Made by a program: the position numbers and the translations under genes. The notes beneath the pieces are model-generated. The model was not told the origin of the DNA. It saw nothing but the letters and a program-made list of their open reading frames with translations, and made no database searches. Below are positions 1,408 through 15,124 of a stretch of 44,591 bases of DNA, in pieces (within the stretch, counting starts at the first letter, position 1; every line of letters starts with the position of its first letter). The stretch is from Rhodovulum robiginosum (lineage in GTDB: Bacteria > Pseudomonadota > Alphaproteobacteria > Rhodobacterales > Rhodobacteraceae), in the NCBI RefSeq assembly GCF_003944755.1, contig NZ_RWGU01000032.1:1-44591 (forward strand), in the 5' to 3' direction.

Positions 1408-1758
1408 GCCGCCCTTATCGGCGATCGCGGCGGCGGGGGCCAGAGGCGGGGCGGGGGGCGGATCGGGTGCGGCGCGATCCAAAGCGGCCGGCGCGCGTTG
1501 CGGTGCGTCCGCAGTGCGGGACAATCCCGCCTTTCCGTTTGCCGAAACGAACGTCGGCTCCACAGGTATTTCCGGACATTTATGGGGACTGCACACAGCA
1601 TGCACATGAGGACCCGAAAAACGTGGAGCCTGAGCGGCGAGTTTGTCCGATCCTCCATGGGCGCTGTGCACGACAGCACGGCTTGCGAAACTGCGTTTCA
1701 AGGCAACTGAGAGTTCCTTGACCGTCTGGTTTTCCGACAGAGCCCATTGCCGCGATCC
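1408..1758. other. Intergenic, about 350 bp, upstream of hrpB
   Basis: No convincing gene is seen. The small reading frames across it have no recognisable domain and overlap each other. Two short hairpins are visible: GCGGGA-CAA-TCCCGC at 1516-1530 and CGTTT-GCCG-AAACG at 1536-1549. The hrpB promoter must lie here, but no clear -35/-10 pair was found. The segment also marks the change from the housekeeping helicase to the accessory gene block. Confidence 0.5.
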
Positions 1759-2769
1759 TCAGGCGTGCACTGGCGCAAGAGCCTGCCACTTCTTTCGGTA
1801 GGCCGACGCGGAGATGCCAACGCGCTTTCGAAAGGCCGAGCGGAAACTCGATGGTTCAGAGTAGCCGACCTCGGCGGCGATCTCGTCGATCGGCGTGGCG
1901 GTGGTTTCAAGAAGCTGCTTGGCCTCTTCGATCCGAAGGGTCTGGATGTAGTCACCCGGCGCCTGACCTGTCACCTTCTTGAAGCGGCGATGGAATCCGC
2001 GTTCGGTCATGCCGCTGCGTTCCGCCATGGCGGCGACGGGGCTCGGCGTTTCGTAGTGCTGCGCCGCCCAGACCTGCGCCTGCGCGATCAGATGATCCTC
2101 GTGCTGGCGCGCAGTGGTCAGCGACGCGTAGGTCAATTGCCCGTCCAGATGCGGGTCGATCAGGTAGATCTTGGCGATCCGGCGCGCTTCGTCGGCCCCT
2201 GCGAAACGCGCGATCAGGTACAACATGAGGTCGGCCCAGGCCGAGGCGCCGCCCGCGGTGACGATGCGGTGTCCTTCCCCGGCCGGCACGAGAATGCGGT
2301 CCCGGCAGACTTTCACCTCGGGATAGTTACGATCCAGCATGTCGGCGAAGCCCCAATGTGTCGTGGCCTCCTTTCCGTCAAGCAGGCCGGTCGCGCCGAG
2401 CAGCATGGTGCCGGAACAGACAGAAGTGACGATTGCGCCACGCGCCTCGGCCGCCCCGATCCAATCGGCGACAGGCTTCATGTCATCGGGCACGCCTGCG
2501 TTTGGATCGATATGCAAATCGGGCACGATAATGAGGTCGGGCGCCGGCGCTTCGCTCAGCATCGCATCGGGCGTGATCTTGCGCCCGTTGATATCCCAGT
2601 AAGGCGCACCATCGGAAGTCCTGAGGCTGACGTCGAAGACCGGGACCTTCGACGGAAGACCGTGCAGCATTTCCCAGTCTCGACCGACAGAAGCCAGGAT
2701 ATCAAGGATCGAGAACAGCGTTGATGTGCCAGCGTAGCGTGATCCGATTACCGTCGTATTGATGGTCAT
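1759..2769 (-). CDS. GlxA-type transcriptional regulator (DJ-1/PfpI domain plus AraC HTH)
   Basis: A 336-residue regulator. Residues about 5-190 form a DJ-1/PfpI (class I glutamine amidotransferase-like) domain with the nucleophile-elbow cysteine in SVCSGT (C118) and a nearby TTHW motif (H138). Residues about 235-330 form an AraC-type double helix-turn-helix containing RGFHRRFKKVTG and VGYSEPSSFRSAFRKR. AGGAGA lies 5 nt before the ATG, which supports the start. The family contains activators that respond to small nitrogenous or other metabolites through the amidotransferase-like domain; the ligand cannot be read here. It is divergent from the homocysteine methyltransferase-like gene with 141 bp between the two starts, so that gene and possibly the following cluster are its most likely targets (inference). 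Confidence 0.88.
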   Translation of the reverse strand: MTINTTVIGSRYAGTSTLFSILDILASVGRDWEMLHGLPSKVPVFDVSLRTSDGAPYWDINGRKITPDAMLSEAPAPDLIIVPDLHIDPNAGVPDDMKPVADWIGAAEARGAIVTSVCSGTMLLGATGLLDGKEATTHWGFADMLDRNYPEVKVCRDRILVPAGEGHRIVTAGGASAWADLMLYLIARFAGADEARRIAKIYLIDPHLDGQLTYASLTTARQHEDHLIAQAQVWAAQHYETPSPVAAMAERSGMTERGFHRRFKKVTGQAPGDYIQTLRIEEAKQLLETTATPIDEIAAEVGYSEPSSFRSAFRKRVGISASAYRKKWQALAPVHA

Positions 2770-2910
2770 TTCGCTCTCCTACAGGCTGTTCTCGTCCGAT
2801 TATCACCGATTCAGTCTTTTCTTCTTCTAACTCGACTCGGGCATCGGGTCCATGACCCTGCACATGAAATCGGCCGATCAGGCCAATCCATCGTGAGCAA
2901 GGATCAAATG

Positions 2911-3888
2911 ATGACCATTCAAAACCAAATCGCGGCCTTCCACACTGACCCGACCCGCAGCTACCTCGCCGACCCGCGCACCTATCTGACCGATGGCGGG
3001 TTTGAGACCTCCATGCTGTTCCTCGAAGGGTTCGACCTGCCGGCCTTCGCGGCCTGCGTCCTGCTCGAAGACGAGGCCGCCCGTGCGGCGATGGACCGGT
3101 ACTTCGACCGCTTTCTCGCGATGGCCCAGACGGCCGGAACCGGTTTCGTTCTCGACACCAACACCTGGCGCTCCGGGACGCATTGGGCCGACGCTGTCGG
3201 CCGGTCGCCCGCCCAGATGGAGGACCTCACCCGTGAGGCCGTCAGGTTTGCCCTGGCGATCCGCGCACGGTGGCAGGATCGCGTTTCGCCGATCCTGGTG
3301 AATGGCGTGATCGGACCCGCCGGCGACGCCTATGACGGTACGCTCGCCCTGGATGCGGCCGCCGCAGAGGAAATCCACGCACCGCAGATCGCATTGCTCG
3401 CGACATGCGGGGTCGATCTGGTCAGCGCGCTGACCTTCGGCAGCATGCCGGAGGCGATCGGGTTTGGCCGTGCAAGTGTCAATGCGGGTGTGCCCGTTGC
3501 GATCTCCTTCACGGTGGAGACGGACGGACGTTTGCCGGATGGAACGCCGCTTTCGCGCGCCGTGCTGGAGACGGATGCCGCAACCGGGGGTGCACCGCTC
3601 TACTACATGATCAATTGCGCGCATCCCGAGCATTTTCGCGACGTTCTGAGCGATGACGCCTGGTGCCGCCGCATCCGCGGTGTCCGGGCGAACGCATCGC
3701 GGCTGAGCCATGCGGAACTCGACGAGGCGGAGACCCTGGACGACGGCGATCCCGAAGAGTTCGGCGCGCTGCATGCCGAGCTCTCCCGAAAGCTCCCGGC
3801 GCTGAAAGTCGTCGGCGGGTGCTGCGGCACGGATCACCGTCATGTCGGCTGCATGGCAGACGCCATGCTTCCCCCGACCGCGGCCTGA
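2911..3888 (+). CDS. Homocysteine S-methyltransferase family protein
   Basis: A 325-residue single-domain Pfam S-methyl_trans (MetH N-terminal-like) TIM barrel. It has the LTDGGFETSM start of the barrel and all three zinc-binding cysteines: one in MINCAHPEH and two in VGGCCGTDHRH near the C-terminus. The family moves a methyl group from S-methylmethionine, betaine or similar donors to a thiol such as homocysteine; the donor is not evident. The frame extends to a GTG at 2893, but AAGGA at 2899-2903 sits 7 nt before the ATG at 2911, which is therefore preferred. It is divergent from the GlxA-type regulator and is followed by about 200 bp before the DUF1127 gene. Length is normal and no cobalamin domain is attached. 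Confidence 0.87.
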   Translation: MTIQNQIAAFHTDPTRSYLADPRTYLTDGGFETSMLFLEGFDLPAFAACVLLEDEAARAAMDRYFDRFLAMAQTAGTGFVLDTNTWRSGTHWADAVGRSPAQMEDLTREAVRFALAIRARWQDRVSPILVNGVIGPAGDAYDGTLALDAAAAEEIHAPQIALLATCGVDLVSALTFGSMPEAIGFGRASVNAGVPVAISFTVETDGRLPDGTPLSRAVLETDAATGGAPLYYMINCAHPEHFRDVLSDDAWCRRIRGVRANASRLSHAELDEAETLDDGDPEEFGALHAELSRKLPALKVVGGCCGTDHRHVGCMADAMLPPTAA

Positions 3889-4095
3889 CCTCCTCCCTCC
3901 GTCCCGGTCCGCACGGAACCGAAATTGATCGGTCATTGCGGGCCGCGCCTGGGCGCAGTGCGGGGCGTCGAAACCGCCGGGGAGTGCCGCGCTGAGACCG
4001 GCTTCGCCCGGTCGGGACGCTCCGCCTGCCGCACGACGACCTCAACGCCCGCTTCATCGCCCGCACCTGAGCGGGCTCCAACAAGGACGAATGAC

Positions 4096-4311
4096 ATGAC
4101 CATGATTTACATCCACGCCGGCGCAGCGCGCCGACACCCTTCGAGCATCGCAAGGGCGCTCCTCGACCGGCTGGCAAAAGCCGCGAAGCGGCGGCGCATC
4201 CGCAAGGAGATGAAAGAGCTGTCTCGGCTCCCCCGCCACCTCCTCCGGGACATGGGCCTCGAGCAATACGCATCGCCCGATGTCCCGACGTTCCCGAACC
4301 ACTGGCGCTAA
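4096..4311 (+). CDS. DUF1127 small basic protein
   Basis: A 71-residue, strongly basic protein. The C-terminal half carries the DUF1127 pattern: an Arg/Lys-rich helix (KAAKRRRIRKEMKEL) followed by LSRLPRHLLRDMGLEQYA. AAGGA at 4083-4087 lies 8 nt before the ATG at 4096, which sets the start; an out-of-frame ATG at 4091 is ignored. DUF1127 proteins are abundant small alphaproteobacterial proteins. One of 71 residues, CcaF1 of Rhodobacter sphaeroides, takes part in RNA maturation and turnover, and others affect phosphate and carbon metabolism. Whether this member binds RNA is unknown. It sits 19 bp upstream of the FMO-like gene and may be the first gene of that transcription unit. Confidence 0.82.
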   Translation: MTMIYIHAGAARRHPSSIARALLDRLAKAAKRRRIRKEMKELSRLPRHLLRDMGLEQYASPDVPTFPNHWR

Positions 4312-4330
4312 ACCTCGGAAAGGAAAGACA

Positions 4331-5554
4331 ATGAACACCATGAGACCCGGCAGTACGCTGGTGATCGGCGCGGGGCTTTCGGGCCTCGCCACCGCACACG
4401 CCCTGGCCGAACGCGGGCTGCCCGTTACCGTGCTCGAGGCACGGGACCGGGTGGCAGACCCCTGGCGCAACCGCCATCCGGCGCTTCGGCTCAACATCCA
4501 CCGCAAGTTCGCCGGGCTTCCGGGACAGGCGGCGCCGAAATCGGACGGTACGTACCTGAAGCGCGACACGGTGGTTGCGCATCTGGAGCGCTACGCCGCA
4601 CGGTTGGAGGCACCGATCCACTTCGGCGTTGCCGTGACGGCTGTCGAACCCGACGAAACTGGATGGCGAGTCACGACCGACGCCTCGGAGTACGGGGCGG
4701 AGAACGTGGTCATTGCGACGGGTCGGGAAAGCATTCCCCACATCCCTGACTGGCCGGGGCAAGACGCCTTTGCCGGGCAGCTCTTGCACGTGGCCGATCT
4801 CGGCGACGTTTCCCGCTTCGATGGCCAGCGTGTGCTGGTCGTGGGCGCGGGCAACTCCGGCACGGACGCGCTGAACCACTTGGCGCGGCACAATCCGGCT
4901 GAGGTGATGGTGTCGGTCCGCTACGGACCGGCGGTCGTGCCGAAGAGCATCTTCGGCTATCCGATCCACGGGCTGGCACGTGTCTTCGCGGCACTGCCGA
5001 ATGCGGTGCTAGACCCGGCCTTCAAGCTGACCGAGCGGCTCTTTCTCGGAGACCTCCGGCGCTATGGGCTCACCAGTCACCCCGAAGGCGGAAGCACGCG
5101 GCTCTTGCGCGATGGCGTGACCTTCGCCATCGACGACGGCTTCGTTGCGGCCCTGAAGGCAGGACGGTTCCGGATCGTGCCGCGCGTCGAGGGTTTTTCC
5201 GGCGACAATGTCGCTCTGGCCGATGGATCGGTCTGCCGACCGGATGTCGTGATCGCGGCCACCGGGTATCGCACGGGGCTCGAGCCGCTTCTGGGACATC
5301 TTGGTGTGCTGGATGAGAACGGCCGCCCGCACCATCCGATGGGCGAGCGTGATCCAGAGATGCCGGGCCTCTGGTTCGCCGGTTTCAAGCCGATCTACAC
5401 CGGCTTCTTCGACGCCGCGGGCATCGCTGCCGGGCGCATCGCCAGCGGTGTGGCTGCCGACGCAAGCCGCGGCGCGCCCTCCGATACGCTCGACATGCAC
5501 GCATCGCATGTCGCCCACCAGCGCCCCGCACCCGCGGACGCATCTCTTTCATGA
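4331..5554 (+). CDS. FMO-like FAD/NAD(P)H-dependent monooxygenase
   Basis: A 407-residue flavoprotein with two Rossmann dinucleotide-binding motifs, GAGLSG at residues 13-18 (FAD) and GAGNSG at 172-177 (NADPH). The segment F147-x-G149-x3-H153 before the second motif matches the start of the flavin-containing monooxygenase signature FxGxxxHxxxY, but the aromatic residue is replaced (LLHVADL). An ATGY motif is present near residue 310. The family oxygenates soft nucleophiles (N or S) or carries out Baeyer-Villiger-type oxidation; the substrate is unknown. A GGAAAGGAAAG purine run precedes the ATG at 4331, which is preferred to the upstream in-frame ATG at 4280. Co-directional with a secreted barrel protein, a MATE exporter and a GST, it looks like the oxidising enzyme of a small-molecule locus (inference). 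Confidence 0.85.
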   Translation: MNTMRPGSTLVIGAGLSGLATAHALAERGLPVTVLEARDRVADPWRNRHPALRLNIHRKFAGLPGQAAPKSDGTYLKRDTVVAHLERYAARLEAPIHFGVAVTAVEPDETGWRVTTDASEYGAENVVIATGRESIPHIPDWPGQDAFAGQLLHVADLGDVSRFDGQRVLVVGAGNSGTDALNHLARHNPAEVMVSVRYGPAVVPKSIFGYPIHGLARVFAALPNAVLDPAFKLTERLFLGDLRRYGLTSHPEGGSTRLLRDGVTFAIDDGFVAALKAGRFRIVPRVEGFSGDNVALADGSVCRPDVVIAATGYRTGLEPLLGHLGVLDENGRPHHPMGERDPEMPGLWFAGFKPIYTGFFDAAGIAAGRIASGVAADASRGAPSDTLDMHASHVAHQRPAPADASLS

Positions 5555-5576
5555 AACTCCAGAAAGGACTATTCGC

Positions 5577-6206
5577 ATGAAACACACGACCCTTGTTTTC
5601 GCCGCCGCCGTCGCGGTCATGCCCTTCGCCGGAAACGCCGGAGAGCCGCTTGCGGCCTTGGATGTTGCCGAGGATATCTCCCGCTTCGTCTTTTCCGCGG
5701 CACCCGTCTTCGACGACGGCATGCCTGCCTATGGCAACGCCTTCATCACGCAGGGCTATCTCTACCCCGCCGGCACGCTCGACGGTGGCGTCGAGGGCAC
5801 TCTGCCGAACGGCGATCCGGCCTTCCCGGACCTCGTGATCGGGGAATGGACCTGTGACGGGTATTTCATCGGCGACGGGATGCGCACGGAAACGGGCGCC
5901 CTCGTCATGACCCGGCAGGTTTACCGTTTCAACGACGGCGATGTGCTGATCAGCCATGGCGCCGAGCTTGTCGATGCCGGCGTGACCGTCACGCGCGCCG
6001 TCACGGGCGGGACCGGCGACTATGCCGATGCCCCGGCCGAGATCGACCAGGTGCTGCTGGGCATGAGCGACGGCTACGGCGTGCGGCTGCAGATCGAACT
6101 GGGCGGTGGGTCCGCGGACGCCTACGGCGACGAGGACCACACGGAATGGGAGTCCGGCTTTCCAGTCGGGCCCATTCCGACCTCGGGCTCCCATGAGGCC
6201 GGCTGA
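5577..6206 (+). CDS. Secreted protein, possible allene-oxide-cyclase/dirigent-like beta-barrel
   Basis: A 209-residue protein with an N-terminal signal peptide (MKHTTLVFAAAVAV... with likely cleavage after NA-21). The mature part is acidic and rich in beta-strand-like segments. The stretch from about 105 to 170 has strand-like MTRQVYRF, then TVTRAVTGGTGDYADA (GGTGDY at 144-149). A glycine-rich GGTG(D/K) turn in this position is typical of dirigent and allene oxide cyclase barrel proteins, lipocalin-like folds that bind or steer reactive small molecules. There is a single cysteine (C93). AGAAAGGA lies just before the ATG at 5577, only 22 bp after the monooxygenase stop, so the two are probably cotranscribed. 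The barrel assignment is by pattern only; catalytic or binding function is not established. Confidence 0.6.
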   Translation: MKHTTLVFAAAVAVMPFAGNAGEPLAALDVAEDISRFVFSAAPVFDDGMPAYGNAFITQGYLYPAGTLDGGVEGTLPNGDPAFPDLVIGEWTCDGYFIGDGMRTETGALVMTRQVYRFNDGDVLISHGAELVDAGVTVTRAVTGGTGDYADAPAEIDQVLLGMSDGYGVRLQIELGGGSADAYGDEDHTEWESGFPVGPIPTSGSHEAG

Positions 6207-6275
6207 GGCCAGTCTGGCGATACCGGAAAGGGGCGGTGGTTCCGCTCCGCGTCTTCCACTGCAAAGGGCGAACTC

Positions 6276-7646
6276 ATGACCTATTTTGAATTGCCGCGCG
6301 CAACAGGCGACCCCTTCAGACATGCCGCTCGAAACGTGAGCAAGGCCGAAGCATGGGCCGTCCTGCGGCTTGCCGCGCCGTTGACCGGTCTAGCGCTGGT
6401 CAACATGGCGATGAGCGTCACCGACACGCTGATGACGGCCGCGTTCGGAGTGGAAGCCCTTGCCGCCGTCGCCGTCGCAAGCGATTTCTATTCGATCCTC
6501 TTCTACCTCGCCGTTGGCTGCATCGGCGGTCTCGGACCGCTCTATGCGGCCGCCCATGCGGCGGGCGATGCGGATCGGTTGGCGCGGCTTAGAACGGCGG
6601 GGACCATCACCTGCGCCCTGCTGGCCTTGCCGATCTGCGGCCTGCTCTGGCAGACGCCGGCGCTATTGGGCCTGCTCGGCATCGATCAGGACCTTGCTGA
6701 TGCAGGCACGGGCTACGTCCGGGCGATGGCACTCACACTGATCCCGATGCTGGCGGTGGGCGTCCTGCGCACGCGCCTGACGGCCATCGGACGTCCAGGC
6801 GTGATGCTGCGGATCACGCTGTGTGCGGTGCCGCTCAATGCCGTCTTCAACTACGTGCTCATGTATGGCGCCTTCGGTCTGCCGGAACTTGGCGTGACCG
6901 GCGCGGGCGTGTCGTCCCTGCTGGTCGGCCTGCTGACGCTTGCCGCCTTGTTGCGAGAGGCGCACCGCGTCGGCGACAGCGGGTCGGGTCGCGTGGAACC
7001 GGAGCATATCGCGGCGATCTTCCGCATCGGCGTGCCCATCGGGATCGCGACGCTGGCCGAAGTCGGCCTCTATCTGGGGGCCACGATCTATGCCGCCTCG
7101 CTATCCGTCACGGACGCGGCTGCCCATTCAGTCGCGATCCGACTGGCCGGTATCGGGTACGCTTTCTATTTCGGCCTGCAGCAGGCCTCGATGACCCGGC
7201 TGGCACGGGTCGATCCCAAGTCGGGCCGCGAAGGTGATGTCGTTGCCACCACGATGGTGCTTGGAATGGCCATCGGTCTGTCGATTTGCACCACCCTCCT
7301 GGTCGTCGCCGAGCCGATCGCCAACTATGCGCTGCGGGGCTCGACGCCCGGCGCCGTCGGCGCTGCGATTACCGTGATCGGCGTGCTCGCCTTGACGGAG
7401 CTGTACGGTCCGGCCGGTGCAGGCGCCGCGGGATTGTTGCGGGCGAGGGAAGTGACGCGCCCGGTCATGGTCTATTCCCTGATCGGGAATTGGCTGGTTT
7501 CGGCCCCCCTGATCGCTGTCTTCACGGTCGTCTTCGACATGGGAGCGGTCGGGATCTGGATCGCGATGGCCACCGGAACGGTCGTCTATTCGGGCCTGTG
7601 CGTTCAGGCACTTCGAAACTTGCCCGCGGCGGGAGGCGAGACATGA
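6276..7646 (+). CDS. MATE family efflux transporter
   Basis: A 456-residue polytopic membrane protein of the multidrug and toxic compound extrusion (NorM/DinF-like) family. The two halves are homologous, each with about six predicted helices. The first half begins APLTGLALVNMAMSVTDTLM and the second has the equivalent IGVPIGIATLAEVGLYLGAT. Conserved P/N/G positions of MATE helices are present, for example VPLNAVFNYVLMYG. Export is by Na+ or H+ antiport in this family; substrates are usually cationic or polyaromatic compounds. AAGGG precedes the ATG at 6276. The last codons overlap the GST start as ATGA, so the two genes are translationally coupled. Its position between a monooxygenase/secreted protein pair and a GST suggests export of a modified or conjugated compound (inference). 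Confidence 0.93.
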   Translation: MTYFELPRATGDPFRHAARNVSKAEAWAVLRLAAPLTGLALVNMAMSVTDTLMTAAFGVEALAAVAVASDFYSILFYLAVGCIGGLGPLYAAAHAAGDADRLARLRTAGTITCALLALPICGLLWQTPALLGLLGIDQDLADAGTGYVRAMALTLIPMLAVGVLRTRLTAIGRPGVMLRITLCAVPLNAVFNYVLMYGAFGLPELGVTGAGVSSLLVGLLTLAALLREAHRVGDSGSGRVEPEHIAAIFRIGVPIGIATLAEVGLYLGATIYAASLSVTDAAAHSVAIRLAGIGYAFYFGLQQASMTRLARVDPKSGREGDVVATTMVLGMAIGLSICTTLLVVAEPIANYALRGSTPGAVGAAITVIGVLALTELYGPAGAGAAGLLRAREVTRPVMVYSLIGNWLVSAPLIAVFTVVFDMGAVGIWIAMATGTVVYSGLCVQALRNLPAAGGET

Positions 7647-8245
7647 CGCTCTATTTCATGCCCGGCGCCTGCTCATTGGCACCCCACATCGCCCTGCGCG
7701 AAGCGAACCTGGAGTTCGACCTCGTCGAGGTGGACTACCGGACGCGGCGAACCGACACCGGGACCGACTATCGCGCGGTTAATCCGAAGGGCACTGTCCC
7801 GGCCCTGCGGATTGCCGATGGCGAGGTCCTGACCGAAGTTCCCGTGATCCTTCAGTTCCTGGCTGACGGAGCACCCGATGCGGGGCTGCTGCCTGCCTCC
7901 GGCCTGCGGCGTCTGCGGGCGCTGGAATGGTTGAACTTCATTTCGACCGAGATCCACAAGAGCTTCAGCCCGCTGTTCCGACCGACGACACCGGACGGCT
8001 TTATTCAGCCGGGCAAAGCCCATCTGCGTAGCAGGCTGGTCATTGTCGAGCGTCACCTGTCCCAGCACACCTACCTTATGGGCGACGATTTCTCGCTGGC
8101 TGATGTGTTTTTGTTCACCGTTTGCCGCTGGCTTGCGGACCAGGACATTTCCCTTGCTGACTGGCCGGCCTTGAAACTGCATTCCGAGAGAATTCGGCTT
8201 CGACCAAGTGTCCGGAAGGCTCTGGATCGGGAGGGGTGTCCATGA
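7643..8245 (+). CDS. Beta-class glutathione S-transferase
   Basis: A 200-residue cytosolic GST. The N-terminal thioredoxin-fold domain has the beta-class motif YFMPGACSLAPHI with Cys10, which forms mixed disulfides with glutathione in bacterial beta GSTs. The conserved cis-proline segment NPKGTVPAL follows. The alpha-helical C-terminal domain has the usual GDDFSLADVFLF capping motif and a normal end (LRPSVRKAL). The glutathione gamma-glutamyl contact normally written TES/TEG is TEVP here. The ATG overlaps the MATE stop by 4 bp. It ends within about 50 bp of a truncated methyltransferase on the other strand. It probably conjugates or reduces electrophiles produced or exported by the neighbouring genes; the substrate is unknown. 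Confidence 0.92.
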   Translation: MTLYFMPGACSLAPHIALREANLEFDLVEVDYRTRRTDTGTDYRAVNPKGTVPALRIADGEVLTEVPVILQFLADGAPDAGLLPASGLRRLRALEWLNFISTEIHKSFSPLFRPTTPDGFIQPGKAHLRSRLVIVERHLSQHTYLMGDDFSLADVFLFTVCRWLADQDISLADWPALKLHSERIRLRPSVRKALDREGCP

Positions 8246-8295
8246 TGGGTCGACAGAGAGGGCCGATAGCCGAGCGGCCGCGACACCCGGCGGGT

Positions 8296-8718
8296 GATCC
8301 GCCCGCCCGGTCGCAGAACGCGGCGCGCCTCCGCCACGACGCGGGGTGGCTCGGGCACGTGCGGCATGCCGAAGCCGACGGTCACCGCGTCGAAGCTGGC
8401 ATCCGGAAACGAAAGCTGCATCGCGTCGCCATTGACGAAACGCGCCCCCGGCACCGCTGCACGGGCAAGCTCGAGCATGGCAGCGGAGAAATCGAGGCCG
8501 GTCACCCGCGCTCCGGCCGCGACAAGGCCCGCATAGACGTTGCCGTGCCCGCAACAGAGGTCGAGCGCATCCGTGTCCGGCCCCGCATCCACGGCGGCGA
8601 CAAGGTGCGGCACGACCATATCCGAGGCTTTTGCGAACCCGCTCGCATAGGCACCGGCGACGCCCGGTTCCGACCATTCCCGCTTTTCCAACTCTGCAAA
8701 GGCTCTCGTATCTCCCAC
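8296..8718 (-). pseudogene. SAM-dependent methyltransferase, C-terminal part lost
   Basis: The minus-strand frame encodes a normal class I methyltransferase N-terminal half: a GTG start at 8718 (VGDTRAFAELEKREW), then motif I DALDLCCGHGNVYAGL, motif II region TGLDFSAAML, GDAMQLSFPDASFDAV and RRVLRPGGR. Immediately after that motif, at about 8296, similarity to the family stops. The frame then runs on into the antisense of the GST without any further methyltransferase sequence. Relatives are about 250-270 residues, so roughly 100 residues are missing. The break lies about 50 bp beyond the GST stop, consistent with a deletion or recombination junction. It is divergent from the hydrolase-LuxR regulator, which may once have controlled it. 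An active shortened product is unlikely. Confidence 0.75.
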
Positions 8719-8884
8719 GACCCGTCGTCGCGTTCTGGCACGCGCGTGCGCCCAATCCACTACTGTGCGGCGCCGCCAAGATCCTGATCGGAGGTTACCA
8801 GATTTTTCCGCACTCCGCCGACAGCCCTGGCACGCACGACATTCCTCATCACAGGATCGGTTCGTCGCTGATATGATTGGCACC

Positions 8885-9982
8885 ATGACCGACTCTGACC
8901 GCCTCCCGCGCCAAGAGATTTCCTTCGTGTCCTCCGTCGACGGCACCCGAATCGCGGTCGCCGCGATGGGCGAAGGGCCGGTCATCCTGCGGGCCGCGCA
9001 TTGGCTGAGCCATGTGTCCAAGGACATCGAAAGCCCGGTCTGGCGCCCTTGGCTGTCCCGGTTGTCAGCGCGCAACCGGATGATCCGATATGATCTGCGC
9101 GGCTGCGGCCTGTCCGATCGCGACGTCGACGAGATCGGGTTCGACGCCTGGCAGGCGGACCTGGAGGCCGTTGCGTCCACGATCAGTGAACCATTCGTTC
9201 TCATGGGCATGTCGCAAGGCGCTGCACTTGCGATCGCCTATGCCCTGCGTCATCCGGACCGGGTCTCCAGCCTCATCCTCATCGGCGGATACGCTCGGGG
9301 TTTGCTGGCACGCGGCACGGACGACGCCACGCGGATGGAGGCCGAGACCCTGTCGAACCTCATGCTACTCGGCTGGGGCAAGCAGGGGTCTGCCTTCTCG
9401 CATGTGTTCACGCAGCTCTTCGTCCCGAATGGAACAGCGCAACAGGTCGGCTGGTGGGAGGACCTGCAACGCTTGTCCGCTTCGCCTGATGTCGCCGCGC
9501 GGACGCTGGACGTTCTGCACCGAATCGACGTCATCGAGGAGGCGCGGCGATTGGCGCTGCCCGTGCTGGTCATGCACAGCCGCCACGATGCGCGCATTCC
9601 GTTCGAGCAGGGCCGTCAACTGGCGGCAGCGATACCCGGCGCGTCCTTCGTCGCCTTGGAGAGCGCGAACCACGTCCTGCTGGAACAGGAGCCCGCATGG
9701 GACCAGATGTGGCGCGAAATCGACGCATTTCTGGGTAACGGCGCGCCAAGACCGGATATTGCGTCCCGCCCTGCCCAGGCGATCTCCGATCTGTCGCCGG
9801 CGGAGCGAGACGTGCTGGGCTGTTTGACCGAGGGGCTGGGCAATTCGGAAATCGCAGCACGGCTGGGAAAATCCGAAAAGACGGTGCGCAACCAGGTCTC
9901 GACCATTCTCGGAAAGCTCGGGGCCCGGAGCCGATCCGAAGCGATCGTCCAGGTTCTGTCCGGACGTCAACGGGACATTTGA
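8885..9982 (+). CDS. Alpha/beta-hydrolase fused to LuxR-type HTH regulator
   Basis: A 365-residue fusion. Residues about 10-285 are an alpha/beta-hydrolase fold with an apparently complete catalytic triad: nucleophile S110 in GMSQG, D235 in HSRHDARIP, and H263 in ESANHVLLE. Residues about 303-355 are a LuxR/GerE helix-turn-helix (LSPAERDVLGCLTEGLGNSEIAARLGKSEKTVRNQVSTILGK, whose first helices are LSPAERDVL and NSEIAARLG). Family members are annotated as transcription regulators in which the hydrolase fold is assumed to sense or process an ester or lactone ligand; this is not shown here. The frame is open upstream with another in-frame ATG at 8873; neither start has a strong ribosome-binding site, and 8885 gives the family-like N-terminus. 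It faces the EamA exporter on the same strand and is divergent from the methyltransferase relic. Confidence 0.85.
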   Translation: MTDSDRLPRQEISFVSSVDGTRIAVAAMGEGPVILRAAHWLSHVSKDIESPVWRPWLSRLSARNRMIRYDLRGCGLSDRDVDEIGFDAWQADLEAVASTISEPFVLMGMSQGAALAIAYALRHPDRVSSLILIGGYARGLLARGTDDATRMEAETLSNLMLLGWGKQGSAFSHVFTQLFVPNGTAQQVGWWEDLQRLSASPDVAARTLDVLHRIDVIEEARRLALPVLVMHSRHDARIPFEQGRQLAAAIPGASFVALESANHVLLEQEPAWDQMWREIDAFLGNGAPRPDIASRPAQAISDLSPAERDVLGCLTEGLGNSEIAARLGKSEKTVRNQVSTILGKLGARSRSEAIVQVLSGRQRDI

Positions 9983-10082
9983 CCCGACGTCGCCTGAAAT
10001 AGTCGGGCGAGGGGGGACACACGCCTCATGACCCAATCAATCCGATGCAGTTTCCTCGCTCACAGTAAAAGAGGAGACGACC

Positions 10083-10976
10083 ATGCAGATGACCGAGGCA
10101 CCCGATCGCAGTGCGGTCCCGGCCATGGCGGCCCTGACCCTCGCCGCATTCTTCTGGTCCGGAAACTTCATCGCCGGACGCGCGCTTGGGGGAACGATCC
10201 CGCCTCTGGAGTTGAATGTCATCCGCTGGGCGCTCTGCCTGGCGCTGCTGTTGCCGCTCGCCGTGCCGGCGCTTGTGCGATGCCGCGCCGAACTGGCGGA
10301 GCATTGGCGGTTGATCGTCCTGCTGGGCCTGACCGGCATCGCCGCGTTCCACACCATGGTCTACCAGGCGCTGACGCTGACGCCGGCGGTCAATGCCCTG
10401 CTCATCCTGTCGCTCGCGCCGGTTGTCACCGTCATCGGTGGCGCGATCTGGAACGGATTTCGACCGGGAAAGGCACAGTTTGCCGGACTTGCGATCTCGG
10501 CCGTCGGTGCGGGCATCATCGTGGTTTCGGGGCGCGGGAACATGCGTGCCGGCTTCGCGGATGCAGGGTCACTGTGGATGCTGGGCGCGATCCTGGTCTG
10601 GGCGGCCTATTCCCTGTTGCTGCGCCGGCGACCCGCCACGTTGCCACAGGACGTGACGCTGACGGCCAGCGTCATCGTCGGGCTATGCGTCATGGCACCG
10701 CTGCTTGCCATTCAGGGCGTTCAGCCCATTCCGATGACTGGCCCGATCATCGCAGCTCTTGGCTACATCGCCTTGTGCGCATCACTTCTGGGGTTTCTGC
10801 TTTGGTCGTGGGGGCTCGACCGGATCGGACCCGAACGTGCGGGACAATTCCTGCACCTGATGCCGGTTTTCGGCACCGTTCTCGCCGTCGCGCTGTTGGG
10901 CGAACGGCTGACACTGACCCATGTCTCCGGAGGGGCTCTCGCCGTCTGTGGGATAGTTCTGGTCAATCGCCGATGA
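10083..10976 (+). CDS. DMT superfamily transporter (two EamA domains)
   Basis: A 297-residue integral membrane protein with about ten hydrophobic helices arranged as two EamA repeats. The first contains FFWSGNFIAGRAL and FHTMVYQALTLTPAVNALLILSLAPV; the second contains LGYIALCASLLGFLLWSWGLDRIGPERAGQF, whose pattern near the end of repeat two is diagnostic, followed by LMPVFGTVLAVALLGERLTLTH. Members export amino acids, metabolites or drugs; the substrate cannot be predicted. GAGGAG at 10072-10076 sets the ATG at 10083. It starts 100 bp after the hydrolase-LuxR gene in the same direction and may be its target. It is convergent with the GNAT gene, with about 250 bp of non-coding DNA between them in which no terminator was evident. 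Confidence 0.9.
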   Translation: MQMTEAPDRSAVPAMAALTLAAFFWSGNFIAGRALGGTIPPLELNVIRWALCLALLLPLAVPALVRCRAELAEHWRLIVLLGLTGIAAFHTMVYQALTLTPAVNALLILSLAPVVTVIGGAIWNGFRPGKAQFAGLAISAVGAGIIVVSGRGNMRAGFADAGSLWMLGAILVWAAYSLLLRRRPATLPQDVTLTASVIVGLCVMAPLLAIQGVQPIPMTGPIIAALGYIALCASLLGFLLWSWGLDRIGPERAGQFLHLMPVFGTVLAVALLGERLTLTHVSGGALAVCGIVLVNRR

Positions 10977-11224
10977 TGAGATGGGAGTGTCCGTCGTCGA
11001 ATGCCTTGAAACTGGACAGCACGGATCAGATCCACACGTCGACGGAGCACGGCCAGAGTATTGCGAATCCTGGGTGCGCGCCTTCAAGATCGGCCCATAG
11101 CTTTCGTTTGTGCGACCAGCTTTATGCTGCGCTGCGGCCCGCCAGACCGGACGTACGCCCTAGGGGCGCCAACCTCGCCGCACCTGCGAGTGCCCCAGCG
11201 TTCAGGGTGGTTCGCTGCCCCTCC

Positions 11225-11683
11225 TTAGATCTGTAGCTTGTATCCAATATGGGTCGGTTCAAAACCCAGACGTTCATAGAAGCGATGGGCGTCCGGGCGG
11301 GCCTTGTCGGTGGTGAGCTGAACCAACGAACACCCGTGTGCCCGGCATTCGCTGATCGCCCACGCAAACATCGCTTCACCAAGCTTGCCGCCCCGACGGT
11401 CGCTCGCGATCCGCACCGCCTCGATCTGTCCTCGCTTGGTGCCATTGCGAGAGAGACCCGCGATGAAGGTGAGCTGCAAGGTTCCAACAATCTGCTGCTC
11501 CTCCTCGACCACACAAAGAAACTGGTTCGGGTCGGCATCAATCTCCGCAAATGCAGCCCGGTAGCAATCGTCTACGGCTGGCGAAGCGTTTTCCCGCGAC
11601 GCACCAAGCACGTCATCGGCCAGCATCGCGACAATCGCCCCCAGGTCCGCTGCGGTTGCTCGGCGGTAACGCGGGTCACCCAT
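11225..11683 (-). CDS. GNAT family N-acetyltransferase
   Basis: A 152-residue acetyltransferase with the GNAT order: N-terminal strand RYRRATAADLGAIVAML, beta4 region QIVGTLQLTFI, the motif A stretch IEAVRIASDRRGGKLGEAMFAWAI with an R-x-x-G-G/K-type acetyl-CoA loop (here RRGGKLG), and the C-terminal motif B AHRFYERLGFEPTHIGYKL. It acetylates an amine on an unknown small molecule or protein. The start at 11683 is fixed by a strong GAGGAGG sequence just upstream; the frame extends further with no second ribosome-binding site. It is the last gene of the minus-strand run that includes DUF1772, DUF4345 and the NmrA-like gene, but a 125-bp gap separates it from DUF1772. Confidence 0.88.
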   Translation of the reverse strand: MGDPRYRRATAADLGAIVAMLADDVLGASRENASPAVDDCYRAAFAEIDADPNQFLCVVEEEQQIVGTLQLTFIAGLSRNGTKRGQIEAVRIASDRRGGKLGEAMFAWAISECRAHGCSLVQLTTDKARPDAHRFYERLGFEPTHIGYKLQI

Positions 11684-11808
11684 GAGTATCCTCCTCTCTT
11701 CATTGCCGACCGCTTCCATAGGAACTGCGGGTCGTGAACGAACGTGCCGGCGGACAGGCGCCGCTGTGCTTCGTTGCGCAGGTCGGCGCCCTGATGCGGC
11801 TCGGTTTT

Positions 11809-12318
11809 TCAAGCCGCCTGTGCCTGAGACTGCGCCGCCCAAGCGAGCGAGAACAGCAGCAGGGCCGCAGACAGTCCGCAGGCGACGGTTCGGACGGTAT
11901 TCCAGAAGCTCCAGCGGGGCAGATAGGTGCGGGCCCAGTAGTCCAGGGTCGCATCCGCGGAGGCCTCCATGCCCGCGAGGGCTTCATTCATCGGCACGTT
12001 GAAGAACACCGTTACCCCGAAGCATCCGACGAAATATGTCAGGCCCGCCAGCATCATCACGGTTCCCGGACCGTGTGCGACGACTATTGCGCCATAGGCC
12101 GCGATCAGCAGGGATACCGGCGCCAGCCCGAGGAAGAGCACCATGAAGACCCAGCGGAACACCTCTCGGTTTATGGCCTGCATCGCCTCCGCGCCACCCT
12201 GACCGCTGGTCACGGACAGGGCGCGCATGATGAAATCCGAGAAGGCGAGAAAGACGCCGCCGACCAACGCATAGGCGAGGACGGTGAGGTGGGCGAGGTA
12301 GAAGAGAACAGGGGACAT
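11809..12318 (-). CDS. DUF1772 (anthrone oxygenase family) membrane protein
   Basis: A 169-residue protein with four likely transmembrane helices: an N-terminal VLFYLAHLTVLAYALVGGVF, then FRWVFMVLFLGLAPVSLLIA, VMMLAGLTYFVGCFGVTVFF, and a last one near the C-terminus. The segment FFNVPMNEALAG followed by a WSFWNTVRT motif before the last helix is characteristic of DUF1772. The Pfam family includes fungal noranthrone mono-oxygenases, but bacterial members are mostly uncharacterised, so an oxygenase role is only a possibility. AAGGA lies about 10 nt before the ATG at 12318. It lies 63 bp downstream of the DUF4345 gene in the same direction and is probably in its operon. Confidence 0.8.
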   Translation of the reverse strand: MSPVLFYLAHLTVLAYALVGGVFLAFSDFIMRALSVTSGQGGAEAMQAINREVFRWVFMVLFLGLAPVSLLIAAYGAIVVAHGPGTVMMLAGLTYFVGCFGVTVFFNVPMNEALAGMEASADATLDYWARTYLPRWSFWNTVRTVACGLSAALLLFSLAWAAQSQAQAA

Positions 12319-12381
12319 GGGGACGAGTTCCTTGGATTGGGGCGGCGGCAGGGCATCAAGCGCCACGCCGCCGCGGCAGGC

Positions 12382-12810
12382 TCAGCGCGCGGGCTGCACC
12401 GTGGAGAGGCCGGGCGCCGGCTGCCAAAGGCGCCGGCGGAAGGCTGCGAGGCAGAGCGCGGCGATCATCAGTTCGATGACGAGGGCGCCGATGACGTTGC
12501 CGGACGGCATCCCGTCCAATGCAAGCCCGACCAGCCGTCCGGCCGGAAAGGCGGTAAAGACCGTCAGGGCCGCCGCCATGCCAACGGGCCGGACCGCGTG
12601 CCGCCAGATGCCGAGCAGCATCAGAAAGCCGAACCCCGCGAGTCCGGCGCCTGGGGCGCGCAATTCGCTCAGCAGGTTGGCGTCTTCGCCGAGCGTGATG
12701 CCGGAGCTGGCGTAGAAGACGTGCGGCGCGAACAGGATGAAAGCGCCGATGGTAAGCGCGGTGAGGCCGGAGAGACCGAGCGCGATCTTCTCGAGCAGGG
12801 TGGGTCTCAT
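12382..12810 (-). CDS. DUF4345 family membrane protein
   Basis: A 142-residue protein with four hydrophobic helices. The helix 1-2 loop has the family-like FAPHVFYASSGITLGEDANLLSELRAPG, where LSELRAPGAGL precedes helix 2, and the third helix region has TAFPAGRLVGLALDGMPS. Function is unknown. Members of this family are often found beside AraC regulators and NmrA-like or DUF1772 genes, as here. The frame runs upstream to 12891, but AAGGA just before the ATG at 12810 and the end of the preceding gene at 12836 make 12810 the likely start. It lies 25 bp after the NmrA-like gene and is probably cotranscribed with it. Confidence 0.75.
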   Translation of the reverse strand: MRPTLLEKIALGLSGLTALTIGAFILFAPHVFYASSGITLGEDANLLSELRAPGAGLAGFGFLMLLGIWRHAVRPVGMAAALTVFTAFPAGRLVGLALDGMPSGNVIGALVIELMIAALCLAAFRRRLWQPAPGLSTVQPAR

Positions 12811-12835
12811 GACATGTTCCTTTCGATGGGGGGTG

Positions 12836-13663
12836 TCAGGCGGCGGTTGTCCAGGCGCCGGTTTGGGCGGCGGCGCGGGCGAACTCCGCAAAGTCGCGGG
12901 CGCCGCGGCCGAGCGCGCGCATCACGCCGTCCGTGGTGTGGGCGTTGCGCCCGTCCAGCGTTTCGCGCGCGATCGCGGTGAAGACGTCGGCGACGAAGGG
13001 GCCGCCAGCCTCGGCGATGTTCGCGTGGAACGCCTCGAAACTGATCGGGATATGCCGGATCTCGCGGCCGGTGGCCCGCGAGAGTTCACCCGCCATGTCC
13101 GCGAAAGTCATCAAGCGCGGGCCCGTCACCTCGTAGAGTTCGCCCTTGTGGCCTTCTTCGGTCAGGGCCGCGACTGCGACATCGGCAATATCGTCGATGT
13201 CGATGATGGGCTCGGCGACATCGCCGCCGGGCATTGGAAGAACGCCGGCCAGGACCGGATCGCGCAGGTAGCCTTCGGAGAAGTTCTGCGCGAACCAGGC
13301 GGCCCGGATGATGGTGAAGTCGACGCCGCAATTGCGCACCACCTCTTCGCCCAGCCGCGCATGATGCTCGCCGCGGCCGGACAGCAGCACGAGGTGCTCG
13401 ACGTCCACGTCGCGGGCCGTCTCGCAGAGAGACTCGAGCTTTTCCACGGCTCCGGGAAAGGCGAGATCGGGAAAGTAGGTGACATAGGCCGCACGGGTTC
13501 CGCGCAGGGCCGGCGTCCAGGTCTCCGGCGCGTCCCAGTCGAAGGGTGTTGCGGACCTGCGCGAGCCGCGGCGCACTGGCAGGCCCCGCGCCTCGAGGCG
13601 GCTGGCGACGCGGCGGCCGGTCTTGCCGGTTGCGCCGATGACGAGGATCGGTTGGTCTTTCAT
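12836..13663 (-). CDS. NmrA-like NAD(P)-binding oxidoreductase
   Basis: A 275-residue atypical short-chain dehydrogenase. It begins QPILVIGATGKTGRRVASRL, with the GATGKTG dinucleotide loop at residues 10-16 typical of NmrA/isoflavone-reductase-like proteins. Further family features are LVLLSGRGEH, IIRAAWFAQNFSEG, and DIDDIADVAVAAL near the middle, which is the conserved segment following the substrate site. The canonical SDR YxxxK pair is not seen, as is common in NmrA-like proteins, which can be enzymes or redox-sensing regulators. It is the first gene of an operon-like set with DUF4345 and DUF1772. The AraC regulator gene ends 108 bp upstream on the same strand and is a likely controller. 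Confidence 0.85.
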   Translation of the reverse strand: MKDQPILVIGATGKTGRRVASRLEARGLPVRRGSRRSATPFDWDAPETWTPALRGTRAAYVTYFPDLAFPGAVEKLESLCETARDVDVEHLVLLSGRGEHHARLGEEVVRNCGVDFTIIRAAWFAQNFSEGYLRDPVLAGVLPMPGGDVAEPIIDIDDIADVAVAALTEEGHKGELYEVTGPRLMTFADMAGELSRATGREIRHIPISFEAFHANIAEAGGPFVADVFTAIARETLDGRNAHTTDGVMRALGRGARDFAEFARAAAQTGAWTTAA

Positions 13664-13771
13664 GGGGTATCTCCCTGGCTTCGGTATCGGTAGCCAAGGG
13701 ATAGGCGCAGGGGTGCTGCGCGGTCTTGACCGGCGATGCCAGCCTTTTGACCGCCGTCGCCAATGCGCGCG

Positions 13772-14785
13772 TCAGCGCTGGGAGATATCCTTGCGGTAGG
13801 TCGCGGGGGTCGTGCCGACCCAGCGCTTGAACGCGCGGGTAAAGGCGCTCTGCTCGGAGAAACCGGTGAGGAACGCGATTTCGGCCAGAGAATGGCTCTC
13901 GTCCCGCAAGAGCCCCTCGGCGAGGTCGCGGCGGGTTTCCTCGGTGAGGCTCTGAAAGGTCATGCCGTGCTCTGAGAGGCGCCTGTGGAAGGACCGCGCA
14001 CTGAGCCCGAGGCCGCGGGCGATCTCGGCCATCCTCGGCGCCCCCTCGCTGAGGGCCTGGGCGATTGCGGCTTTCGCCTGCGTGACAAGCGCCGGCTCCC
14101 GGGTGATCTCGGACAGTTCCGCGTCGAGATGCGTGGTGAGGTATTTCGATATCCCCTCGTCCCCGAGGATATTGGGCCGGGCCAGCACCTCGTCGGCATA
14201 GAGGATCGCGTCGAGTTCGGCGCCGAAGCGCACCGGGCAGCCGAACCACTCCTCATGCGCGGCGACCCGGCGCGGGGCGGGATGCCGGACCAGCACTTCC
14301 ACGGGCGCGAGCGGCACCGGGCAGACCTGCCGTGCGATGGATACCGCGCTCGCAAGGGTCGCCTCGTTCGACAGCCGCATCCCGAGGCGCCGTTCGCCCG
14401 CCCGGTGCAGGATGAAGAGCGTGCCCCCGGTCGCCGGCCGCAGCTCGTATTCCACAACGCTGGACCACAGGCGCGCATAGCGTTCCACCCGCGCGTAGGA
14501 CGCCCCGAGCGTCGTCGCCGCCTTGAAGGCAAGGCCAAGCGCACCGTATTCGTCCAGCCGCATCGAGGCGCCCGTGCGCACCGGCAGGTCGGTCACGTCG
14601 ATCTGATCGGCGATCCTTTCGAGCATGTCGTAGTAGCGCTCGGCCGGAACCATCCTTCCGGCATCCCAGGGATCATCGGGGGCGATCCCGACGCTGGCCA
14701 GCATCGCCGCAGCATCGATTTTACCGCCCGCCGCGGCGACCACCTTGCGCGCGAAGAGCGACGTGACATACCCCATGCCCGGCAT
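13772..14785 (-). CDS. AraC family regulator with arabinose-binding-type N-terminal domain
   Basis: A 337-residue regulator. The N-terminal about 200 residues match the Arabinose_bd (OruR/ArgR-type) ligand domain, including [28 protein letters not shown] and a later [19 protein letters not shown] segment. The C-terminal about 100 residues are an AraC HTH pair: [20 protein letters not shown] and [23 protein letters not shown], ending GTTPATYRK. Such proteins usually activate genes next to them in response to small metabolites. The start is uncertain: ATGs at 14785, 14776 and an upstream 14812 are in frame, and none has a good ribosome-binding site. It lies directly upstream of the NmrA-like/DUF4345/DUF1772 genes on the same strand, which are its probable regulon. 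Confidence 0.87.
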
Positions 14786-15124
14786 TCTACGGTGCGCGTG
14801 GTGAACGGCCAACCTCGCGGTGGAACCGGGCGCGCGCTGAACTGGATGTCCGCTGTTCGTTCAACCTCGCATCCAACGTGCACGAGTAGAGAAGGTCGGC
14901 GTCCCGCCCCGTCCACCGGATTGTCGCGACCCGCCCGTGGCGTCGCCCGTGGCGCAGGCGATGAAGGTCTGAAATTCACTCTCACCGGCGCATCGGCACA
15001 GGATCGCGCCGCTGCGGCATGGTGCGCGGCAGAGGGCGGTCGCCCCCCGAACCGGGCTCCGGGGCTGGACACCCATCCGCGCGCGCGGCAAGAGGGGCAC
15101 CATCCCAGACGACCGGAGGCGCCC
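14786..15124. other. Intergenic, about 340 bp, between divergent AraC regulator and meaB
   Basis: No gene is supported; the open frames here are extensions or antisense shadows. The only clear signal is GGAGG at 15115-15119, 5 nt before the meaB ATG. No convincing sigma-70 promoter or long repeat was seen. It is the right-hand limit of the accessory block that begins near 1.76 kb. Confidence 0.5.

Follow-up and report, generated by a model that had tools for sequence, protein, structure and literature searches.

Gene content of the locus

The window analysed in this work is the whole stretch of 44,591 nucleotides of contig NZ_RWGU01000032.1 from Rhodovulum robiginosum, and its subject is a set of seven genes that includes the gene of a secreted barrel protein remotely related, at the profile level, to allene oxide cyclase (AOC) and dirigent proteins. 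The initial annotation had singled out five genes, all on the + strand and with gaps of 19, 22, 69 and −4 bp, and these coordinates and gaps were re-derived exactly. The GlxA-type regulator gene and the homocysteine-S-methyltransferase-like (HMT) gene on the left, described there as neighbours, are indeed present, but they are members of the unit and not mere neighbours of it. The relevant features are listed below; L004 is a locus of Maritimibacter sp. NAT7.

1447..15061, no strand: genomic island, about 13.6 kb, with the locus inside it (empty site in same-genus genomes)
1743..8278, no strand: module from the GlxA-type gene to the GST gene, common with L004
1759..2769, − strand: GlxA-type regulator (DJ-1/PfpI plus AraC helix-turn-helix), divergent; PF12833 and PF01965 above cut-off
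2794..2808, + strand: candidate operator GTCCGATTATCACCG, with a similar core in 11 of 12 aligned regions, in the divergent intergenic region
2908..3888, + strand: HMT protein; PF02574, 111 bits, above the cut-off of 22
4096..4311, + strand: DUF1127-like small basic protein; Pfam match below cut-off
4331..5554, + strand: flavin monooxygenase (FMO), class-B type, akin to the sulfide-oxidising SMFMO/CFMO; PF13738, PF00743
5577..6206, + strand: secreted AOC/dirigent-like barrel with an invariant Cys93; hhalign, WTCxG motif
6276..7646, + strand: MATE exporter; PF01554, 99.9 bits, above the cut-off of 24.9
7643..8245, + strand: glutathione transferase (GST) GstA; NCBIfam NF007831, 220.7, above the cut-off of 198
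8284..8712, − strand: class I methyltransferase fragment; 56% between residues 26-168 of the open reading frame (ORF) and a relative

The comparison with L004 gave a single blastn block of 6,538 bp at 87% identity, which ends on both sides at the limits of the module. Between the window and L004, each of the seven genes of the module has a dN/dS value within 0.11-0.35, a range that indicates purifying selection. The gene set presumably constitutes an operon; no promoter-like + site was detected in the gene gaps, and the promoter and terminator scan, whose counts equal those of shuffled sequences (1 vs. 0.9 and 5 vs. 4.7 sites), neither proves nor excludes it. Neither Rfam, at the gathering threshold, nor a tRNA scan gave a hit in the window. 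The gene set is real, conserved and mobile, and no paper listed by our literature searches, which covered open PMC papers, names or describes such a cassette; a further search gave no support to an idea based on tropodithietic acid.

The matches to FMO-like/Pyr_redox_3, MatE and GST passed their Pfam cut-offs. The 4096..4311 protein missed that of PF06568 (DUF1127; 18.9 vs. 23.3 bits), and the gene in the corresponding place of the pSMR1-5 plasmid operon is annotated as DUF1127. The MATE protein scored 115.1 with TIGR00797, under the cut-off of 147.4. The best PDB match of the FMO was 4usq, and 4a9w was also matched. Entry 4usq is probably CFMO, on the basis of the equal length (361 aa) and of a single mention of the entry in the excerpts of PMC4220118. 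According to the same excerpts, FMOs of the 4usq/4a9w type oxidise prochiral sulfides. The window FMO contains both GxGxxG motifs of SMFMO, CFMO and PSFMO, but differs from them in length (407 vs. 357-361 aa) and in the end of a further motif (PMC4220118, in part), as discussed below.

Partners of the barrel gene in other genomes

Among 101 genomes, the barrel was found in two, that of the window and one other with two copies, and was absent from the 15 same-genus genomes listed. In the family of the window it occurs in 15 of 394 genomes. A contig scan, with the barrel as the sole criterion for choosing loci, gave 69 barrel loci out of 120 candidate stretches. Most of them are from Rhodobacterales; others come from further Proteobacteria, from Chloroflexota (three) and from an actinobacterial metagenome-assembled genome (MAG; one). 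Partners were counted over the 69 loci by tblastn, up to 5.5 kb from the barrel.

In 61 of the 69 loci the barrel gene has a methyltransferase gene upstream, always in the same orientation. The slot is occupied by an HMT gene in 51 of them (by fragments only in L058 and L068) and by an unrelated S-adenosylmethionine (SAM) methyltransferase gene (cluster c12) in 10, and never by both. As compared to this, MATE is found downstream on the + strand in 8 loci and GST in 2. Therefore, the set DUF1127-FMO-barrel-MATE-GST, taken in the initial annotation as the natural unit, was dropped as such. The natural unit extends beyond these five genes and is modular: it includes the divergent GlxA-type regulator and the HMT, and MATE and GST are exchangeable ends. 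The expectation that the gene order is kept outside this genome was borne out. In fact, 9 loci have an FMO gene upstream of the barrel and in the same orientation (2 weak matches are downstream on the opposite strand), the order FMO-barrel-MATE was found in L004 and L016, and the complete order from DUF1127 to GST in L004.

GlxA is upstream and divergent in 10 loci and downstream in 2 more. In 17 loci a DUF1127-like ORF precedes the barrel at a distance of up to 3 kb, as counted with a hidden Markov model seeded from eight of these proteins, seven of the counted loci being among the seeds; a regular-expression count of 7 loci was too strict and is superseded. Downstream, the commonest partner is a GNAT acetyltransferase (38 loci). 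A di-haem peroxidase is present in 25 loci, downstream in 24 of them, and an MddA-like protein (c16) in 7, all with HMT; FMO, peroxidase and MddA-like protein never occur two in one locus. The NCBIfam model NF045656 (MddA) matched all seven c16 proteins, with a best E of 1.2e-75 and a single displayed score of 235.3, below the cut-off of 270. Either MATE or a small EamA-like exporter is present in 16 loci.

Variants of the operon and probable exchange of the methyltransferase

Four arrangements were distinguished. In variant (a), GlxA is divergent and is followed by methyltransferase, DUF1127, FMO, barrel and an end module. The window and L004 have HMT in the slot and MATE-GST at the end, while L005, L006, L007, L008, L009, L010 and L012 have the SAM-methyltransferase in the slot; of these, L008, L009, L010 and L012 end with the c17 methyltransferase, L007 with a small cupin-like gene (our reading) plus GST, and L005 and L006 with neither type. 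The place of GlxA in L007 and L012 falls past the contig end. The mobilizable plasmid pSMR1-5 carries, in this order, a GlxA-type regulator, two small genes, a methyltransferase, DUF1127, FMO, barrel, a 134-aa gene, gstA and a methyltransferase. Beside this plasmid copy (L079, 1-3026), a vanadium haloperoxidase, a MAPEG protein and a methyltransferase are annotated.

Variant (b) is represented by L136, from the single-contig genome G179, in which GlxA is followed by HMT (88%), DUF1127, barrel and di-haem peroxidase, with no FMO between DUF1127 and barrel; L136 is a bridge between two operon variants. Variant (c), with seven loci, has a divergent regulator-like protein of alpha/beta-hydrolase type, in which we read a BTAD part, and then HMT, MddA-like protein, DUF1127 and barrel; MATE is present in six of the seven. 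An alpha/beta-hydrolase plus LuxR-type protein is encoded at 8873-9982 of the window, and its hydrolase part resembles the regulator-like protein of the seven loci (44-46% identity). In variant (d), a TetR or winged-helix/TPR regulator is followed by HMT and barrel, and often, further downstream, by GNAT and peroxidase.

The barrel tree was built from 67 rows, without the second copy of L015 and without L070, L071 and L072. In this tree the barrels of the window and L004, whose slot holds HMT, grouped with those of nine SAM-methyltransferase loci (99/94), and specifically with L005/L006 at 97/86. GlxA, DUF1127 and FMO are common to the window, L004 and most of the nine loci. This nesting, together with the common genes, is most simply explained by an exchange in place, in which one methyltransferase would have been replaced by an unrelated one in the same operon slot. 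This probable exchange is also the main reason why we regard methyl transfer as the core step. In our reading the operon is built around two proteins, a methyltransferase inside the cytoplasm and an AOC/dirigent-type barrel that is exported.

The barrel protein

No Pfam family matched the window barrel, even at E=10, and the cut-offs of AOC_like and Dirigent were not reached. When 60 barrel relatives (alignment A3) were scanned with Pfam at E≤1, 6 matched Dirigent (best 0.0029) and 4 matched AOC_like (best 0.052). The comparison by hhalign of the barrel profile with a 21-row AOC_like profile gave 95.7% (E 1e-8, 110 columns), with respect to 0.1-1.4% for 20 column-shuffled controls and 0.1-0.4% for four unrelated profiles; the 21 rows are from 18 of 22 actinobacterial places (4 omitted) and 3 others, include near-copies, and are above the Pfam cut-off in 12 cases. 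An earlier AOC_like profile made from only three proteins gave a weak 4.9%. On the basis of these profiles the barrel is a remote allene-oxide-cyclase/dirigent relative, and the initial guess of such a pattern is upheld at this level.

The WTCxG motif is present in all 68 called barrel proteins, and the mature part has exactly one Cys in 66 of the 68. A TGGTG-type hallmark was found in 61, including that of the window. A hydrophobic N-segment was likewise found in 61; of the 7 without a clear one, 6 have short called N-termini. In 3 of the 69 loci (L070, L071, L072) the barrel escaped the gene caller, and start sites may be miscalled. Locus L015 contains two barrel genes (16-699 and 10001-10585), about 9.3 kb apart. 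In the Chloroflexota MAGs L057 (6233-7651) and L069 (10518-11912) a gene for a FAD-linked oxidase-like protein (c18, our reading) comes after the barrel; this cluster occurs also in L014, L015, L019 and L020.

Secretion and the GGTG-type hallmark are common to the barrel and to the bacterial dirigent-like and AOC-like proteins (PF03018, PF18678) surveyed in PMC9344732, on the basis of the excerpts of that survey. The barrel differs from them in having no Pfam match and a linked methyltransferase, and in its single invariant Cys, as compared to the beta3/beta4 cysteine pair in 42 of 49 proteins given in those excerpts. The excerpts also describe some dirigent-like genes as adjoining an oxidoreductase, and their neighbours as mostly uncharacterised; the word Rhodobacter occurs nowhere in the main text of PMC9344732.

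The homocysteine-methyltransferase-like protein

With MmuM, BHMT and the MetH domain the window HMT shares the PF02574 family and three cysteines, Cys237, Cys305 and Cys306, which we take to be zinc-binding and which are kept in all 42 sequences of alignment A5. It is unlike MmuM and BHMT at position 175, aligned with Glu159 of BHMT and with the CETLP site of MmuM. In fact, none of the 42 sequences has Glu at this position, and all have L, I, M, V, A or T. Since Glu159 of BHMT is presumably the Glu of the homocysteine site, its absence makes homocysteine unlikely as the acceptor. Acceptors in this superfamily are thiols or selenols. The score with the MmuM-type NCBIfam model was 57.9 bits as compared to a cut-off of 215, and no equivalog cut-off was reached.

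The HMT subfamily was found in 90 of the 394 family genomes (E≤1e-60), including all 15 with a barrel, and in 14 of these 15 the HMT gene lies within 2 kb of a barrel (the exception is G541; coordinates were compared by eye). As HMT is commoner than the barrel, it should also work without it; an example is HMT-DUF1127-GNAT in Roseibium. A second HMT of the same subfamily is present in the genome of the window (G000:C11:183007-183927).

The genomic island and its edges

In 9 of 9 same-genus genomes searched, the sequences up to 1446 and from 15062 of the window are adjoining (1-63 bp apart), so that 1447-15061 is an insertion in this genome. By our reading, the left flank is hrpB-like and the sequence from 15062 on holds a MeaB-like gene. 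The end of the L004-like module at 8278 is about six bases from the methyltransferase fragment, whose similarity stops next to the module edge and whose 3' part is missing. A simple insertion into that methyltransferase gene is not supported, since the left flank does not contain the lost 3' part. In L004 the operon runs on beyond GST with a methyltransferase, a dihydrofolate-reductase-like gene (our reading) and c20; therefore, the window copy has probably been cut at its right end. The same island contains, at 11225-14812 on the − strand, genes for a GNAT-like protein, two small membrane proteins, an NmrA-like protein and an AraC regulator, as read from their translations.

Regulation

The protein encoded at 1759..2769 passed the cut-offs of HTH_18 and DJ-1_PfpI and failed that of the FtrA-type model NF006902 (199.2 vs. 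425), and for this reason only a broad GlxA type is claimed. A divergent regulator resembling one of four representatives lies upstream in 63 of the 69 loci. Of 12 hand-picked GlxA-type divergent regions, 11 contain a core that resembles GTCCGATnATCACCG and departs from it in no more than about four places, the Sinorhizobium region being the one without it. The element at 2794..2808 has one exact copy in the window. Allowing up to 3 mismatches, 3 matches were found with respect to 1.10 expected, a number reached in 12 of 100 shuffles. For this reason, it is its conservation and its place that support the candidate operator.

Proposed function and alternative explanations

We tentatively propose, as a reading that could well be correct although short of probable, that the locus is a mobile, regulator-linked operon that would modify and remove a sulfur-containing small molecule. 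Detoxification of such a molecule is the most likely role, with removal as the presumed direction. HMT would use a sulfonium-type donor to methylate a thiol distinct from homocysteine, FMO would oxygenate the resulting thioether, MATE would export the product, and GstA may handle electrophilic by-products. The barrel, outside the cytoplasm, may bind or steer the reactive molecule in a cavity with Cys93, and GlxA would sense the compound and control the operon, perhaps via the 2794-2808 element.

The hint of thiol or sulfur chemistry that the initial annotation drew from the HMT neighbour is strengthened, because HMT turned out to be the commonest partner of the barrel. The case for sulfur comes from the HMT family with its zinc cysteines, the MddA-like neighbour and the sulfide-oxidising kin of the FMO, which are kinships and not activities. 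The upstream methyltransferase in 61 loci, the nesting in the barrel tree, the mutual exclusion of FMO, peroxidase and MddA-like protein, the carriage on a plasmid and an island, the exporter in 16 loci and the divergent regulator in 63 also favour the proposal. The Mdd systems (MddA, MddH, MddM1/2) S-methylate H2S and methanethiol and are proposed as detoxification in the excerpts of PMC12904073; an MddA-like protein accompanies the barrel in 7 of 69 loci but is not in the window module, and those excerpts mention no barrel or operon of this kind.

Several observations weigh against the proposal. Many of the 69 loci are close relatives, so that the counts are not independent, and 8 have no upstream + methyltransferase of either kind. 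The best PDB relatives of the slot SAM-methyltransferase are 5f8c and TnmJ, which give no pointer to sulfur, and neither is known to us as an S-methyltransferase. GNAT is not in the window module and is unexplained by the scheme. The FMO motif FAGQLLHVADL has Leu in place of the final Tyr of FxGxxxHxxxY (wording from the excerpts of PMC4220118). Finally, FMO, peroxidase and MddA-like protein are all missing from 28 loci, and 53 have neither MATE nor a small exporter; therefore, oxidation and export are not constant.

The main rival, possible but rather unlikely in our judgement, is a small biosynthetic operon in which methyltransferase and FMO would build a secreted metabolite or signal, MATE would export it and the barrel would cyclise or steer it outside. 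Plant AOC and dirigent proteins cyclise or steer molecules, and the kinship of the barrel to AOC_like, the oxidising enzyme in 34 of 69 loci (FMO 9, peroxidase 25) and the patchy distribution among the family genomes (15 of 394) all fit such a role. However, no scaffold-forming enzyme is among the identified recurrent neighbour clusters (c6 and c7 are among those without identification), and the divergent one-component regulators, exporters, GST, GNAT and RidA-like proteins resemble a response to a compound.

A more novel reading, likewise rather unlikely, is a bacterial thiol-handling system made of the core methyltransferase and the one-cysteine secreted dirigent/AOC-type barrel, with the oxidising enzyme and the exporter as swapped modules. 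A general stress cassette, oxidative or hypohalous, with the barrel as a scavenger outside the cytoplasm, appears improbable. The di-haem peroxidase in 25 loci, the vanadium haloperoxidase beside the pSMR1-5 copy and the appearance of DUF1127 proteins in excerpts of the stress-response literature are in its favour, but it leaves unexplained why the operon retains a slot for a methyltransferase although the enzyme in it changes.

Two further explanations are very unlikely. Resistance to organoarsenicals or metalloids, by an ArsO-like FMO with methyltransferase, exporter and GST, is suggested by ArsO (NF040505) as the best NCBIfam match of the FMO (E 3.4e-47) and by arsH near a barrel locus on a Ruegeria YS9 plasmid; however, that match scores 161.6 bits, well below the cut-off of 425, and no arsenic regulator, reductase or arsenite pump is among the Pfam and NCBIfam matches of the module. 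Equally implausible is ordinary methionine metabolism, in which HMT would methylate homocysteine with S-methylmethionine or betaine as donor and the remaining genes would be incidental: membership in PF02574 and the intact zinc-site cysteines agree with it, but all 42 sequences lack a counterpart of BHMT Glu159, the MmuM-type score is low and the usual partner of HMT is a secreted barrel. Chance adjacency, conceivable because FMO, MATE and GST are each common families, has a negligible likelihood and is refuted for the methyltransferase-barrel core by its recurrence in one orientation in loci chosen by the barrel and by the dN/dS values, though not for GST, present in 2 of 69 loci.

Significance

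We know of no function for bacterial dirigent/AOC-like barrels. With this locus they acquire an enzyme that often accompanies them, a chemistry open to test (methylation of a thiol followed by oxidation) and cultured strains in which to test it. If the reading as a thiol-handling system is correct, bacterial dirigent-like proteins would, to our knowledge, have been placed in a functional context for the first time, and this would be a case of an unrelated methyltransferase placed in the same operon slot. Since an HMT subfamily without the homocysteine-site Glu is present in 90 of the 394 family genomes, its true acceptor would bear on marine organosulfur chemistry.

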